Assembly (NCBI RefSeq): GCF_000279145.1
Contig: NC_018178.1
Coordinates: 1,488,001 to 1,552,000, forward strand
Direction of reading: 5' to 3'
DNA: 64,000 bases
From: Melioribacter roseus P3M-2
Lineage (GTDB): Bacteria; Bacteroidota; Ignavibacteria; Ignavibacteriales; Melioribacteraceae
Shown here: positions 35,039 through 44,859 of the stretch, one piece after another
Layout: each line of letters begins with the position of its first letter
Position numbering within the stretch: position 1 is the first letter of the stretch
Translations under genes and position numbers: made by a program
The notes under the pieces: generated by a model
Told to the model about the DNA's origin: nothing
Seen by the model: the letters and a program-made list of their open reading frames with translations, nothing else
Databases searched by the model: none

Positions 35039-35071
35039 CCTTCGATTTCAGCTCGTAATCGAAGGTTTTTT
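35039..35071 (+). terminator. Rho-independent terminator after DUF1761 gene
   Basis: A 9-bp perfect stem (CCTTCGATT at 35039-35047 with 35057-35065) with a 9-nt loop is followed by a T-run (35066-35071). Confidence 0.88.
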
Positions 35072-35129
35072 ATGGCATTATAGTTGACTCTTACCCGACA
35101 ATTGAAATAGTTAACTTATGGAGGTAGGA

Positions 35130-38100
35130 GTGAAAAACTCTTTAATATTAAGTCTGATCTTATTGCTGAGTATAACTTTGATTGATAATTCGCTTAGCGA
35201 GGCTCAATCAAAAGGAATCAAAAAGACGACCAATTATACAAGTATAGCTAAGATTACCGGCACAGCCGAGGGAAAGTCGATATCATATACAAACCCTTAC
35301 ACGAACCAGCAGGCAAAGCATTTTGCGGGAACTTTTAAGGGTACTCTTAATTCTCAAAACGAGAAATTTTATTGCGTCGATTTACAACACAGTCTGGTTT
35401 ATAATCAGGATTATTGGGACGAAAATTACACTCCTTCCGAAATTACTTATATTCTCAACAATTATTATCCTTACAAAACAAATTACCCCGGAAAATTGTC
35501 CGACAACAGCAAGGAAGCAGCCGCCGTTCAGTTTGCCATCTGGCATTTCAGCGACGGCGTGAATGCAAGCACAATATCGAACAATAATACGGTAAAAACG
35601 CGCGCCCTTGCGATTATTGCCGACGCCCAGGCAAATCATAACAACACGGCGCCTTTGCAGACGCTGGTTATTTTACCCGCATCTCAATCGCTTGCGGTTA
35701 ATACGCCCGCGCAATTCGCTGTTTATGCTTACGATTTGAACGGTAATCCGGCGGCTAATGTGGACATTCAAATCAGCGCATCACTCGGAACTTTGAACGC
35801 TACAACGGGCACAACCGACAATAACGGCCATGCCGGTCCTTTTACTCTTACTTATAACGGAGTCGGCGTCGCAAATTTAAGCGTTAGAGCCGAAGTCGAT
35901 ATTCCTCAGGGCACTCGCTATGTCCACTCGGCAAATCCGGGCGGAAAACAAAAACTCGTACTTGCTACTCCGACCGTCGATACAAAAGAAGAATACGCTA
36001 CCGTTGAATGGTATCAGGCAAGCGGATGCGATTTGAACGGTTATGTAACTTATACGCAAGGCGGATGGGGCAGTCCTTCAAACAGCGCTCCGGGCACTTT
36101 GAGAGACGCCCATTTCAGTTCGGTGTTCCCGAACGGAATGACAATCGGCGGAAATTATAAAATTACGCTTACGTCGTCATCGGCTGTTAGAAATTATTTG
36201 CCCGACGGCGGAACCGCAGAAGCGTTGAATCAAAACTATACCAATCCTACATCAAAAATTAATGTTCTTGCAGGACAATTAACCGCTTTGAAATTAAATG
36301 TATATTACAGCGCTGCAGGCTATCTGGGAACGAATTCCACTCCTCTCGGCGATTTGGTGATTACAAGCGGACCTTTTGCAGGCTACTCGGTTAACCAGTT
36401 TCTGGCATTTGCAGAATCGGCATTGGGCGGCGGCGATTTGAACGGATTTACTTATTCGGAAATTAACGAAGCCGCAACGGCTATAAACGAAAATTTCGAC
36501 AACGGCACAGTCGATAACGGATTTTTAACATGTCAATTGCCTGCCTCGTTGGGCAACAAAGTATGGGAAGATGCAAACAAAAACGGTTTGCAGGATAACG
36601 GCGAAAACGGCGTGCCAAATGTAACGGTTGAACTTTATTCCTGCGACAACAATCTGATTGCCGCTACAACCACAAACGCCCAGGGCGAATATCTCTTCGA
36701 CAATCTTACACCCGGCGATTATTACGTGAAATTCGTCCTTCCACAGGGCTACGTTTTTACAAATCAGGACGGCGGAAACGACGACGAGATCGATTCGGAC
36801 GCAAATATCAACACCGGCAAAACAGTTTGCACTACTTTGACATCGGGCGAAAACGATTTGTCGTGGGACGCCGGAATTTATGCGGAAACGGTATGTATGA
36901 ATAAAATCGGCAATTACGTATGGCACGATAAAAATGTCGACGGCATTCAAAATCAAAACGAAGAGGGAATCGAAGGCGTTGTTGTCGAATTGATGCAAAA
37001 CGGTCAGCTCGTTGCGGTCGATACTACGGATTCAAACGGCTATTACCTCTTCGAAAATTTACTCAACGGTTCGTATACCGTAAGACTTGCCGCTTCCAAT
37101 TTTACCGGCGGCGGAGTCCTGGTAAGCGACGCGCAGGTTAAATGGTATTCGACAAAATTAAACGAAGGCGGCAGCGACGAATTGGACAGCGACGGCGGAA
37201 TGAATCAACCGGTTAACGTAACTCTCGATTGCAACGACGATTTATCCGTCGATTTCGGATTCTATAAAACATGCGTCAGCGTAACGAAAACGGCGGACAA
37301 ACAGACTGCAAAGCCGGGCGACGTTATTACTTATACGTTTACAGTTGAAAATTGCGGCGACGTTACTCTCAGCGGCGGAGTCGATTTTTATGACGAATTA
37401 ATCAATCCGAACGGCGATCATAAAATCAAAAACATCTCGCCTGTTCATCCTGGCGAAGTCAAAACATTCACAAAGACATATACTGTTACGGAAGACGATT
37501 GCGGAATGCTCGTCAATGTGGTCAAAGCAGTAGGACATCCTGTTGACGGCTCGGCTTCGGCCGAAGACGAAGACGACGCTACGGTGGAAATCGACTGCGA
37601 ACTCTCGTGCGTAACCGACTGGAGCGTTCAATTGGGTCCCGACTCCGCAATATGCGAACTCGACCCGATGCCGATTACAATAAACGGTTCGGTTTCGCTT
37701 ACGCCGAATCCTTCCAAAGCTTATTTACAGTTATCGTGGCGGATTGTCGAGCCGAATGACGGCAGCGTCGACAATTCGACTCATTACGAAACTATTTTAA
37801 TTACTCAGGACACTACATTCTCGATTACGGCGCAGTGGCCCGGAGTTCGTCCTGAGGATCAGGTGGTCGAAATTCATTACGGCGTAAACGTTCTCGATTG
37901 CGACGGCAATCCGATCAAAAACGGCGCGGGCAGAGATTTGTACTGGTATCCCTGGGTATGCCCTCCGCCTCAGGAAAAACCCGCCGACGTTAGAATTGAA
38001 AAAACAGTCGACAATCCGGAGCCGGAATGCAACGAAACAATTAATTATACAATAAAAGTAACAAACGACGGTCCGAACAGAGCCACCGGAATACAGGTAA

Positions 38101-40286
38101 CCGACATACTTCCGCAGGGCTTGATATACAATTACAGTTCCGCTTCTCAAGGTGCATACGATACTACTACAGGGCTTTGGAACGTAGGCGACCTCGACTC
38201 TGCAAGCATTGCAACGCTTACAATAAATGTAACGGCAAGCTGCGAGCAGATTAATAATTCGATATTCGACCTCGGAGCGGCTAAAGATTATAATCTGTTC
38301 GTTATATACGACGTCGAACAGCCTTCTTCGGATACTCAGGGTAAAGTTGCCGTAGGACGCGACGCTTACTTTGCAAATTACAGCATCGGCGACCAATTGC
38401 CGGCAGGCATCGGCGACGTGCTGATTGTGGGTAGAGACCTGAATTTCATCAGCGGAGCCGTATACGGCGGCGTAGCATACGGTAATACGACAAACCTGCC
38501 TCAGAATTCGGTGAGCGTCAGCGGCGTTCTTCGTCAGGATAATCCGATTAACTTTGCCGCCGCTAAGACGTACCTCGAAAACCTGTCGACAACGCTTTCC
38601 GGTTATACGGTAACGGGAACCGTCGATTTTCAATACGGCGGCTTAACATTAACGGGCAACGACCCTTATCTGAATGTATTCAAAGTAAACGGAGCCGATT
38701 TATCGTCCGCAAACAACGTTACAATTAACGCTCCCAACGGTTCGGTAGTCCTTGTTAATATCGACGGAGCTAATGTTTCATGGACGGGCGGTCTTACGGT
38801 CAACGGCACAAGTATGACCAACGTACTTTATAATTTCTACGAAGCTACGGAATTGACAATACAGGGAATCGATGTGCGCGGTTCGATTCTCGCTCCTTTT
38901 GCCCATGTAGAATTTGTTACCGGAGTAATCAACGGTCAAATGATTTGTAAATCGTTCTCCGGCGCCGGTCAGATGAATTACGCTCCGTTTATAGGAAACA
39001 TCCCGTTCGAAAAAGAAATAACAAACATAGCTACGATTACGTCGACAATTTCCACCGATCCAAACGCAGATAATAATTCCGCAAGCGCGGTAATAAGAGT
39101 ATCGAATGCGGAAGACAATAATTCGTCGCAAGGCAGCGAGAATAATAATCAGAACTGGCAGTATGTAAACGGATTTTCGAACGGCGAGATTGTATATGCG
39201 ATGGCTTATGATAATTCCGGCGCAATATATGCCGGAACATGGGGCGGGAACGTATACCGCTCCGACGACGGCGGAAGCAACTGGACGAACATTAAAGCCA
39301 ATTTGCAGGCTGGATATATCTGGGCGCTCATTTTGAACGACGGCGTCTTATTCGCAGCTACGGAACAGGGCATATTCAAATACGACGGCGCTTCCTGGAA
39401 CGAAGCAGGACTCAACGGTATCGACGTTCACGATCTGGCCGCAAACAACGGACAGTTGATTGCAGGCACATGGGGATACGGCGTTTATGTATCGAACGAC
39501 AACGGTTTGACCTGGAATGAAATGAATACGGGTCTCGGATATAATTTGGTTATTCAATCGGTAACTGTTCATAACAACAAACTTTATGCAGCAAGCTACG
39601 GCGGCGGAGTATTTAAGTACGAAAATAATGCCTGGATAAAACTCAACGTCGGTTACGATTTCGTATGGTCGCTCTCGTCGAACTCGAACGCTCTCTTTGC
39701 GGGAACTTACGGAAGCGGTTTATATAAATCTGCGGACGACGGAGCTACCTGGGAAAAAGTTAACAATCTGCCAGCATTGTTTGTCTATTCGGTTGTTTCC
39801 GATTTGAGCGGCAAAGTATATGTAGCTTCGTGGACAAGCGGCGTATACAGCTCGGAAGATAACGGCGCCACATGGACTTCGCAGGGTCTCGGCGGCTTGG
39901 GAGTAAGTTCTCTTATCGTGACTCGGAATTCAGACGATGTTTTCGTAGGCACCAAAGAAGGTAAGATTCTTTTGAGCAGAAGAGAAAACAGCGTTACTTC
40001 AGTCGAATCGAACGACATACCTACGGATTTCGAGCTCAACCAGAATTATCCTAATCCGTTTAATCCCGTTACTACTATCAGATTCGGAGTTCCCGAAAGC
40101 GGAAATTATACGCTCAAAGTCTATAACATTCTCGGTCAGGAAGTAGCCACGCTGTTCGACGACTTTATGAGCGCCGGTTATCAGAAGATTACATTCAACG
40201 CAAGCTCGTTAGCTTCGGGAATGTATATCTACAGACTGACGGGTAAAAATGTAAACATTACGAAGAAAATGGTGCTTGTCAAGTAA
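35130..40286 (+). CDS. Giant thioester-domain surface protein with type IX sorting signal
   Basis: I chose GTG 35130 because GGAGGTAGGA lies just before it; ATG 35118 has no ribosome site. About 1718 residues in order: signal peptide (1-25); Cys-Gln thioester (TQXA-like) domain with Cys82 in FYCVDLQH and Gln134 in VQFAIWHFSDG; Ig-like Big domain (about 177-257); a beta-rich domain with YTQGGWG (about 290-465); two SdrD B-like domains (starts LGNKVWEDANKNG near 472 and IGNYVWHDKNVDG near 592); DUF11 (714-820); a beta domain (826-950); DUF11 (952-1040) interrupted by a choice-of-anchor A domain (1047-1290), then resuming; a BNR/Asp-box propeller (about 1340-1620); type IX sorting domain (NYPNPFNPVTTIRFG to the end). 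It is probably a surface adhesin that can bind a target covalently through the Cys-Gln thioester. That role is known for Gram-positive relatives and inferred here. Confidence 0.88.
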   Translation: MKNSLILSLILLLSITLIDNSLSEAQSKGIKKTTNYTSIAKITGTAEGKSISYTNPYTNQQAKHFAGTFKGTLNSQNEKFYCVDLQHSLVYNQDYWDENYTPSEITYILNNYYPYKTNYPGKLSDNSKEAAAVQFAIWHFSDGVNASTISNNNTVKTRALAIIADAQANHNNTAPLQTLVILPASQSLAVNTPAQFAVYAYDLNGNPAANVDIQISASLGTLNATTGTTDNNGHAGPFTLTYNGVGVANLSVRAEVDIPQGTRYVHSANPGGKQKLVLATPTVDTKEEYATVEWYQASGCDLNGYVTYTQGGWGSPSNSAPGTLRDAHFSSVFPNGMTIGGNYKITLTSSSAVRNYLPDGGTAEALNQNYTNPTSKINVLAGQLTALKLNVYYSAAGYLGTNSTPLGDLVITSGPFAGYSVNQFLAFAESALGGGDLNGFTYSEINEAATAINENFDNGTVDNGFLTCQLPASLGNKVWEDANKNGLQDNGENGVPNVTVELYSCDNNLIAATTTNAQGEYLFDNLTPGDYYVKFVLPQGYVFTNQDGGNDDEIDSDANINTGKTVCTTLTSGENDLSWDAGIYAETVCMNKIGNYVWHDKNVDGIQNQNEEGIEGVVVELMQNGQLVAVDTTDSNGYYLFENLLNGSYTVRLAASNFTGGGVLVSDAQVKWYSTKLNEGGSDELDSDGGMNQPVNVTLDCNDDLSVDFGFYKTCVSVTKTADKQTAKPGDVITYTFTVENCGDVTLSGGVDFYDELINPNGDHKIKNISPVHPGEVKTFTKTYTVTEDDCGMLVNVVKAVGHPVDGSASAEDEDDATVEIDCELSCVTDWSVQLGPDSAICELDPMPITINGSVSLTPNPSKAYLQLSWRIVEPNDGSVDNSTHYETILITQDTTFSITAQWPGVRPEDQVVEIHYGVNVLDCDGNPIKNGAGRDLYWYPWVCPPPQEKPADVRIEKTVDNPEPECNETINYTIKVTNDGPNRATGIQVTDILPQGLIYNYSSASQGAYDTTTGLWNVGDLDSASIATLTINVTASCEQINNSIFDLGAAKDYNLFVIYDVEQPSSDTQGKVAVGRDAYFANYSIGDQLPAGIGDVLIVGRDLNFISGAVYGGVAYGNTTNLPQNSVSVSGVLRQDNPINFAAAKTYLENLSTTLSGYTVTGTVDFQYGGLTLTGNDPYLNVFKVNGADLSSANNVTINAPNGSVVLVNIDGANVSWTGGLTVNGTSMTNVLYNFYEATELTIQGIDVRGSILAPFAHVEFVTGVINGQMICKSFSGAGQMNYAPFIGNIPFEKEITNIATITSTISTDPNADNNSASAVIRVSNAEDNNSSQGSENNNQNWQYVNGFSNGEIVYAMAYDNSGAIYAGTWGGNVYRSDDGGSNWTNIKANLQAGYIWALILNDGVLFAATEQGIFKYDGASWNEAGLNGIDVHDLAANNGQLIAGTWGYGVYVSNDNGLTWNEMNTGLGYNLVIQSVTVHNNKLYAASYGGGVFKYENNAWIKLNVGYDFVWSLSSNSNALFAGTYGSGLYKSADDGATWEKVNNLPALFVYSVVSDLSGKVYVASWTSGVYSSEDNGATWTSQGLGGLGVSSLIVTRNSDDVFVGTKEGKILLSRRENSVTSVESNDIPTDFELNQNYPNPFNPVTTIRFGVPESGNYTLKVYNILGQEVATLFDDFMSAGYQKITFNASSLASGMYIYRLTGKNVNITKKMVLVK

Positions 40287-42477: not shown

Positions 42478-44859
42478 TTATCTTTTCATATGCTCTTCGA
42501 GTAAAATTTTCGCCCTCGATTTGTAGATTGTATGGTAAATCAAATCGAGATACGCGTTTATATCCTCGTGTTCCAGATTTGTTGCGTACTTCCAGAATCC
42601 GTATAGCTTGGCAAGCGACAAAAGTCGTTTTGAGTAGAGCTTCCAGCTGTATTTTTCGGTTACCCTTTTAATCGCCGCTTTTGAAAGTTTGTCCCAAACA
42701 GATGAATCGATATAAGAGTCGCTGAGGAATCGAACGATTTTTTCGGTAGTTTCTTCCTGGTTGACGGGATCGATGTGAAAACCATTAACTCCGTTCTGAA
42801 TTATTTCGAGGGGGCCTCCGTATTTGGTGGCAAATACGGGCAAACCCGAAGTCATCGCTTCCAGAACTGTTAATCCGAAACCTTCGAATAATGCCGGTTG
42901 AACAAAAATACCTCTTCGTTCTGCAATAATTCTGTAGGCTTCTCCCGATTCGTCTTTCGGAAGAAGCTTGCCAATCCATCTTATTTTATTGTGAAGTTTA
43001 TATTTTGTAATCAACTCGTGCATTAATCGGATTTGCTCTTTTTCTTCATAATCATCCGTCATGGTTTCGTCTATTTTGCCTGCAACGACAATCAAATTCG
43101 AAGTTTGTTGAAGTTCCTCGCTTTCGCCGAAGCAACGCACGAGGAAACTGATATTTTTAATTCTGTCGAGACGGGACATAGTGAAAATAGGGGTTTTCTC
43201 CGGATTGTCGAGCCACCCGATTACATCCGGGTCTTCTGAATTTGAAAAGAATAAATTTTCGATGCGTCTCTTGGTTTCTTTGAGTCGCCATTTCGTTTTG
43301 GGATAAGGGAAATAAATTTTTTCGTTGACGCCCGGAGACACTATGTTGAATTTAACATGAAAAGGATTAACTCCGTTCTCGACGCGGTATAGTCCCGGCA
43401 TTGTAAAATGCATATACGATTCGTATTGCCCGATCGATTTTTCCGTGCCGGCTATTTCCTGGAACGACGAAGTGATTAAAAAATCGGCCGAGTTTATTGC
43501 CAATAAATCGGCGGTAAACTGCATGGAGAAATGGTAATATTTTTCGAGGTCGTACCAATAGAGAGCGCTGTAGAGATATTTACTCTTTTCGAGCGCATGA
43601 GCAATTCCGCATTGAGTAACTTTGAATTTCTTTGCCAACAAATAGGCAACAAGATTTCCGTCCGAGTAATTACCGATTATCAAGTCGGGTCTTTTTTTGA
43701 ATTCGGCCAGAAGGGCTGTATAAGAATCTTCCGCGAAGTCTTCGAGATAAGGCCATATTTCAAATCTAGAAATCCATTCGTCGGTCACCCGTTTGTTGTA
43801 TTCCCTGAAGGGGACTCGCAGTATCCACGAGTTTTTAGCGCCGTAAATTTTTTCCAATCTTTGGTTGCAGGTTGTTCCTCTTGCATTTGGAATTAATCGC
43901 GTAAGAACTATAATCTTGGGCAAAAGATTAAGCCCCGACTTTTTCAAAGAATCAATCAATTGTTTTTCGAGCGCTTTTACCTGGTCGAGTATATAAACGA
44001 CCTGCCCGCCCGTATCCGGCAAGCCCAGCACTCCCTCCTGACCGAAAAATCCGTGCGGGGAAATTATCGCTATATTTAAAATCATCGGAATCGAAGAAAT
44101 AAATTCCGCCAGCGCATTGTGGTCGGGCGAGTTTAGCAGCTGGTCGAGTAAATTGAGATTATGTGTGATTGTGCCTGCGTCTTTGCCCAGACCTTTTTCA
44201 AAACCCAATTCCTGAAGAATATGCTTAATGTTTTCGTAAGGGGTATTTGCCGGATGGTTGCCGAGTTTGGCGAGAGCGGCGTTAATTTGGTTGTTGAGAT
44301 GTTTTGTGTCTTTTATCCGATCGTTCAGTATAAGCTGTTCGCCGTTAAAATTATGCAGACGTATAAAATCGAAAAGATTTTTTTTCCATCTTTCTTCGTT
44401 CGTAAACATTTGGCTGGAAAGGAAACGATTTAAATATTCGACCCCCGACCCGATGTATTTTATGTCTCGTACTGCCGGCGATTTGTCGTAGAAAGGTTTG
44501 AAGTTCAGATTTAAAGTCGTGTTGAGAGTGTCGGGTTTCGCTACGGTTTCTTTGTAAATAAGAAATTCCTTTGACGATATTTCTTCTATAAGGAATTCCT
44601 CAAGACTGATGCGATAAAATTTGATCGAAGCTATTTTAATTCTTACGTCCAGAATAACCGAATGGTCGAGCGATATCGTTTCCTGAATCTTTTCGATAAA
44701 TTCATATAGCCCTGAATTCTTGTCATATCCCGAGGCGACGTAGAGATTTATCAGTTCGCCCGTAATCATTAATTTCTTCGGTTGCGTGGAAACGGCTTTT
44801 AGAAAGTCGTAAAAATCGTTATGAAAAGTTTCCGCCGTTTTATAAATGTCTTTGATCAT
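42478..44859 (-). CDS. Sucrose synthase
   Basis: This 793-residue GT4 enzyme reversibly converts sucrose plus NDP to fructose plus NDP-glucose. It has the N-terminal sucrose synthase regulatory region (1-260). The GT-B domain starts with AIISPHGFFGQEGVLGLPDTGGQVVYILDQ-like features: the sequence GLPDTGGQVVYILDQ and LTRLIPNARGTTCNQRLE are characteristic. The C-terminal half has MSRLDRIKNI and the E-x7-E motif in PALFEGFGLTVLEAM. Length is that of plant and bacterial enzymes. It is the last gene of the operon with sucrose-phosphate synthase 4 bp upstream. It is probably used for sucrose turnover or NDP-glucose supply. Confidence 0.92.
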   Translation of the reverse strand: MIKDIYKTAETFHNDFYDFLKAVSTQPKKLMITGELINLYVASGYDKNSGLYEFIEKIQETISLDHSVILDVRIKIASIKFYRISLEEFLIEEISSKEFLIYKETVAKPDTLNTTLNLNFKPFYDKSPAVRDIKYIGSGVEYLNRFLSSQMFTNEERWKKNLFDFIRLHNFNGEQLILNDRIKDTKHLNNQINAALAKLGNHPANTPYENIKHILQELGFEKGLGKDAGTITHNLNLLDQLLNSPDHNALAEFISSIPMILNIAIISPHGFFGQEGVLGLPDTGGQVVYILDQVKALEKQLIDSLKKSGLNLLPKIIVLTRLIPNARGTTCNQRLEKIYGAKNSWILRVPFREYNKRVTDEWISRFEIWPYLEDFAEDSYTALLAEFKKRPDLIIGNYSDGNLVAYLLAKKFKVTQCGIAHALEKSKYLYSALYWYDLEKYYHFSMQFTADLLAINSADFLITSSFQEIAGTEKSIGQYESYMHFTMPGLYRVENGVNPFHVKFNIVSPGVNEKIYFPYPKTKWRLKETKRRIENLFFSNSEDPDVIGWLDNPEKTPIFTMSRLDRIKNISFLVRCFGESEELQQTSNLIVVAGKIDETMTDDYEEKEQIRLMHELITKYKLHNKIRWIGKLLPKDESGEAYRIIAERRGIFVQPALFEGFGLTVLEAMTSGLPVFATKYGGPLEIIQNGVNGFHIDPVNQEETTEKIVRFLSDSYIDSSVWDKLSKAAIKRVTEKYSWKLYSKRLLSLAKLYGFWKYATNLEHEDINAYLDLIYHTIYKSRAKILLEEHMKR

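Follow-up and report, generated by a model that had tools for sequence, protein, structure and literature searches.

A probable type IX-sorted fibrillar adhesin with a Class II-type thioester domain in Melioribacter roseus

Thioester adhesins have been reported from Gram-positive bacteria "exclusively" (PMC4450167), and interest in them has centered on how pathogens attach to their hosts. The Class I thioester domains (TEDs) SfbI, Cpa, and CpTIE belong to cell wall–anchored proteins and lack an inserted sandwich; SfbI binds a lysine of fibrinogen. Class II TEDs, represented by BaTIE (6fwv), EfmTIE86 (6fwy), SaTIE (6fx6), and the pLS20 TIE, have an N-terminal head with the cysteine on a barrel strand, a TQXA-type helix, an inserted β-sandwich, and a late-strand bond glutamine. 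In the thioester-isopeptide-ester (TIE) adhesins, a thioester tip is combined with an isopeptide-type stalk. Across the characterized TEDs, only the cysteine of a [YFL]C motif and the glutamine of a weak late-strand motif are fully conserved, while there is a third motif, the TQXX(hydrophobic)W helix, whose glutamine the bond does not require (PMC4450167, PMC6194298). Structures and mutants place the bond glutamine on strand Q (PMC4450167, PMC6194298), as with CpTIE Gln267 and SfbI Gln261 (PMC4450167). In Gram-negative bacteria, fibrillar adhesins with CLIPPER domains have been described (9ifr); DUF11 is such an isopeptide domain, and DUF7507 and SdrD_B are listed as predicted ones (PMC12617251).

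Here, we analyzed a gene from the genome of Melioribacter roseus P3M-2, a member of the Ignavibacteriota, within a window of 64,000 nucleotides (contig NC_018178.1, positions 1,488,001 to 1,552,000), to which all positions below refer. The gene lies at 35118-40286 on the forward strand, as do all of its features, and encodes 1722 amino acids from ATG 35118 or 1718 from the likely GTG at 35130. The GTG, which is preceded by GGAGG (35120-35124) at a distance of five bases, is the probable start. Residues are numbered from the ATG; a preliminary description counted from the GTG, and its numbers are four lower. We propose, with a probability of roughly 0.78, that the gene encodes a TIE-like fibrillar adhesin displayed by the type IX secretion system (T9SS), whose tip would carry a Cys86-Gln278 thioester that captures an amine on a partner. 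The TED family itself is already known, and automatic annotation would name the domain; what appears to be new is its occurrence in a Gram-negative lineage, on a protein sorted by the type IX route. Our search of the open-access literature found no work joining TEDs with type IX secretion or with Ignavibacteria; a single paper also mentioned Bacteroidetes, a review devoted to monoderm surface proteins.

The Pfam TED profile (PF08341) matched residues 84 to 171 at 51.4 bits (E value 1.5e-13), more than double its cut-off of 22. The narrower TQXA model TIGR03934 requires 30.4 bits, and the protein fell short of this at 26.2. No match to the TED profile was obtained in 14 control genomes, and this gene is the single copy in the M. 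roseus genome (one contig, 3.30 Mb). The two motifs that first drew attention to the domain, FYCVDLQH (residues 84-91) and VQFAIWHFSDG (137-147), are present where the preliminary description had placed them, and its reading of this Gram-negative protein as one that is sorted by type IX and bears a thioester-type domain is borne out by the TED and Por_Secre_tail profile matches. The domain was, however, assigned too short an extent. Rather than ending at 35650, it runs from residue 30 to about residue 300 (35205-36017), as judged from profile, alignment, and fold model; the fold comprises a head of β-barrel and three helices, an inserted β-sandwich, and strands P/Q, and needs both the sandwich and strand Q. 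The Big_1/invasin-like sandwich occupies 35652-35912, between helix 3 and strands P/Q; it was recognized by structure match and by a Pfam Big_1 match at residues 197 to 258 that lies below its cut-off.

An AlphaFold2 model of residues 30 to 305, built from 69 aligned sequences, reached a mean pLDDT of 90.1. In the PDB, the best four Foldseek matches all came from Class II TEDs, namely 6fwy and 6fwv, with E values between 1e-10 and 6e-9. VIA-align superimposed 244 residues of the Bacillus anthracis domain (6fwv, Z 16.5) and 239 residues of the Enterococcus faecium domain (6fwy, Z 15.2), followed by the Class I TEDs 5a0g, 5dcq, 2xic, and 5a0l (Z 11-12, rmsd 3-4 Å), whose head fold and bond residues align with those of the M. 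roseus protein. As modeled, the domain is of Class II, having the inserted sandwich and Class II structures as its top matches, with which it shares only 12-15% sequence identity. The global rmsd to the Class II TEDs is high, at 6-7 Å, and probably reflects a different orientation of head and sandwich or another, Big_1-like, origin of the sandwich. The sandwich resembles the immunoglobulin domains of invasin and intimin in both structure and sequence (invasin 1cwv, Z 13.0, rmsd 2.0 over 91 residues). A plain phmmer comparison of the domain with PDB sequences gave no match; in a profile search, intimin/invasin immunoglobulin domains came out best and the TED chains were weak (4c0z, 0.046; 5a0l, 0.21).

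The residues of the predicted bond were examined in alignments, first of 38 whole-genome sequences and then of 80, that is, the window protein and 79 of 231 relatives, most of them 38-86% identical to it. Cys86 (35373-35375), Gln138 (35529-35531), and Gln278 (35949-35951; Gln274 when counted from the GTG) were the only invariant cysteine and glutamines (80/80); the next-best glutamine of the domain was found in 62 of the 80. Cys86 lies within FYCVD, which fits the [YFL]C-hydrophobic-polar motif of thioester domains, Gln138 within the TQXA-type helix VQFAIW, and Gln278 within KQKLVLATP, on the strand Q that follows the sandwich, beyond the end formerly assigned to the domain. The spacing between Cys86 and Gln278, 192 residues, compares with 171 in SaTIE and 204 in EfmTIE86 (PMC6194298).

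To place Gln278 relative to the known bond residues, we counted back from the last aligned residue of 5a0g, 5a0l, and 2xic, assuming no gap after the glutamine. In this ungapped count, CpTIE Gln267 (275 on model residue 257), SfbI Gln261 (270 on 258), and Cpa Gln575, which we take to be its bond residue (585 on 259), coincide at position 249 of the model, the position of Gln278. Further chains of those proteins, 4bug and 5a0d, had end-points one or two residues off; the count is accurate to about two residues, and Gln278 is the sole glutamine in that range. It is thus a late-strand glutamine in register with SfbI Gln261 and CpTIE Gln267. Our predicted bond partner of Cys86, based on alignment, model, and analogy, is therefore Gln278 and not Gln138. 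The preliminary description had named the right cysteine (its Cys82) but the wrong glutamine (its Gln134), because in characterized TEDs the bond glutamine sits on the late strand, where Gln278 is invariant. Its pairing of Cys86 with Gln138 can draw on the equal invariance of Gln138 (80/80), but we regard it as scarcely credible: characterized TEDs use the strand-Q glutamine and can dispense with that of the TQXA helix (PMC4450167, PMC6194298), and three TED structures agree in register with Gln278. The experiment suggested with that pairing, a construct of its residues 26 to 175, lacks Gln278, and thus a missing −17 Da shift there would be a false negative and would refute nothing.

The same alignment bears on whether Cys86 might instead be a structural or disulfide-forming cysteine of an ordinary immunoglobulin-rich adhesin, with the TED score reflecting fold resemblance only. 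A second cysteine, Cys304, does lie just past the domain in 48 of the 80 sequences, but it is replaced by leucine in 24, whereas Cys86 never varies, and it is specifically to Class II TEDs that the head fold and the strand of Gln278 correspond. We therefore consider this explanation very improbable.

The predicted export route differs from that of the Gram-positive proteins. A signal peptide was read from the sequence at residues 5 to 29 (35130-35204), probably cleaved after SEA, and a hydrophobic N terminus is also present in relatives. At the other end, in place of the LPXTG motif and sortase anchoring of TIE proteins and Class II TEDs, we found a T9SS type A C-terminal sorting domain at residues 1644 to 1719 (40047-40274), matched by both Pfam (Por_Secre_tail, E=3.8e-11) and NCBIfam (TIGR04183, 4e-12, 45.9 bits); this agrees with the type IX assignment of the preliminary description. 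The genome encodes 90 T9SS sorting domains and the translocon component SprA (matched in two parts of a single frame, at 628 and 410 bits), so that sorting domain and translocon occur in one genome, as in T9SS type A cargo. Taken together, the signal peptide for Sec export, the sorting domain, and SprA make display on the outer surface likely. Another T9SS sorting-domain protein, with propeller-like repeats, is encoded in the window at 18475-19764 (+).

Between the tip and the sorting domain lies a multidomain stalk. Residues 306 to 470 (36033-36527), between the TED and the stalk, form a conserved region that had no Pfam match even at an E value of 1; it contains TYTQGGWGSPSNS.PG.IRD..F and is present in most long relatives. 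It is followed by two SdrD_B domains (residues 476-587 and about 595-717; 36543-37268; the second boundary was read from the sequence). Their number differs between relatives, from five in locus L096 to none in L134 and L144, and stalk length is thus variable. Next come a DUF7507 domain (37275-37556) with the Lys724-Asp759-Asn800 triad of an isopeptide domain, the first part of a DUF11/CLIPPER domain carrying Lys962 and Asp996 (37986-38264), a choice-of-anchor A/pAdhesive_15 ice-binding-like domain (38283-38996), recognized by Pfam, NCBIfam, and its match to 7bwx, the closing strands of the CLIPPER domain with Asn1303 (39009-39107), and a probable β-propeller formed by BNR/Vps10-like repeats with weak Pfam matches (39165-40037). 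Among 39 long sequences, the Lys962-Asp996-Asn1303 triad was kept in 37, and Lys724-Asp759-Asn800 in nearly all of those with a DUF7507 domain.

Because Asn1303 follows the choice-of-anchor A domain, the latter lies inside the CLIPPER domain. In a second model (residues 952-1338, pLDDT 91.3), 118 of the 123 residues of the CLIPPER structure 9ifr aligned between model positions 2 and 378 (Z 14.0, rmsd 2.1), and an ice-binding β-helix occupied positions 97 to 341 within that span (7bwx, Z 19.4). This insertion between Asp996 and Asn1303 (37986-39107) was conserved in 37 of the 39 sequences. The protein thus shares the Lys-Asp-Asn triad and the fold of Gram-negative CLIPPER fibrillar adhesins (PMC12617251), from which it differs in the interruption by the choice-of-anchor A domain and in the thioester domain at its tip. 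Isopeptide bonds are predicted in both the DUF7507 and the DUF11 domain, which would correspond to the isopeptide-type stalk of TIE proteins, although the composition of SdrD_B, DUF7507, DUF11/CLIPPER with the ice-binding-like domain, and propeller is a different one, and no ester domain was found in the protein.

Our computations cover the predicted fold and domain make-up, the sorting domain and the SprA of the genome, the lack of any variation at Cys86 and Gln278, and conservation throughout the lineage; thioester formation, amine capture, and the target we infer as follows. After Sec export, the Class II thioester domain would fold, and Cys86 would join Gln278, releasing ammonia. The protein would then reach the outer surface by means of SprA-type translocation and its sorting domain, with the tip thioester buried and shielded in a cleft. 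There, it may react with a primary amine, probably a lysine, of a specific protein partner that fits the surrounding loops. The outcome would be a durable amide bond; the remaining domains may meanwhile bear load and bind a surface. Alternatively, the fold could have been kept and the thioester not used for capture, the tip binding noncovalently or the bond hydrolyzing without a target. The owners are environmental bacteria, and target and chemistry are putative, which leaves some room for this explanation. Yet Cys86 and Gln278 are kept in 80 of 80 sequences while the loops around them vary freely, and a noncovalent domain would be expected to have lost one or the other in some lineages; we thus judge it unlikely and favor capture by the Cys86-Gln278 thioester.

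To assess the distribution of the domain, we sampled 395 genomes from the phylum, 33 of which contained a TED. Most belonged to the same family (23 of 26 genomes) or to other members of the same order (8 of 14); of the remaining two, one came from elsewhere in the class and the other, a weak match, from outside these groups. A scan of GTDB species genomes yielded the 231 relatives, and the 79 loci examined from these were nearly all titled Ignavibacteria, Melioribacteraceae, or similar, the nearest being 85% identical over the thioester domain. A T9SS-type tail was recognized by motif in 65 of the 66 relatives with a complete 3' end and was confirmed by Pfam in all six of those that were scanned. 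The exception is locus L123, from a record titled Anaerolineae, whose protein terminates in a membrane segment; TEDs are rare in its phylum (2 of 301 genomes).

Judging from their record titles, the relatives are Ignavibacteria mostly from groundwater, hot-spring, sediment, and other environmental samples, with Stygiobacter electus 09-Me as a named strain. Host adhesion is therefore unlikely as the main role, and the target is probably other cells, biofilm matrix, or a colonized substrate rather than an animal host. Somewhat less firmly than the adhesin itself, we favor the broader view that a whole free-living lineage, the Ignavibacteriales, practices TIE-like covalent thioester adhesion via type IX secretion across a two-membrane envelope and toward non-host targets, with both kinds of bond, thioester and isopeptide, forming before the protein crosses the outer membrane or while it does so. 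Covalent adhesion may thus extend further than the published studies we found indicate. If so, thioester chemistry would also operate with a different mode of export and anchoring. It would then have to be explained how so reactive a bond withstands the periplasm and the crossing of the outer membrane, and a nonpathogen such as Stygiobacter electus 09-Me could serve as a model for finding natural non-host targets.

Some TED proteins had other C termini. Locus L123 (4042-5793) and L159 (1117-2997), from the same phylum as each other, both encode TED proteins with C-terminal membrane segments, and the L123 domain is 45% identical to that of the window and shares KQKLVLATP. A 221-residue protein at L067 (9300-9965), from another order of the M. 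roseus phylum, bears a PEP-CTERM sorting signal together with a short TED-like domain; its TED match is near the cut-off and occurs in 1 of 98 genomes of that order. By its sequence, it would represent a second Gram-negative sorting route for TEDs.

Compared with the closest relative (89% amino acid identity over the whole protein), omega was about 0.06, and all parts of the gene are under purifying selection. A search for tandem repeats found none. Gene neighborhood was conserved almost only in the closest relative, L068, and no partner gene could be identified from this context. A terminator-like hairpin upstream of the gene (35039-35071), with arms CCTTCGATT and AATCGAAGG, a 9-base loop, and a subsequent TTTTTT, suggests that the gene forms a single-gene unit; because of this hairpin and its T run, we judged it unlikely that the gene shares an operon with the DUF1761 gene upstream. 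Farther downstream, at 42478-44859 on the reverse strand, the window encodes a full-length sucrose synthase (TIGR02470, 1066 bits), an enzyme that is less common outside plants and cyanobacteria.
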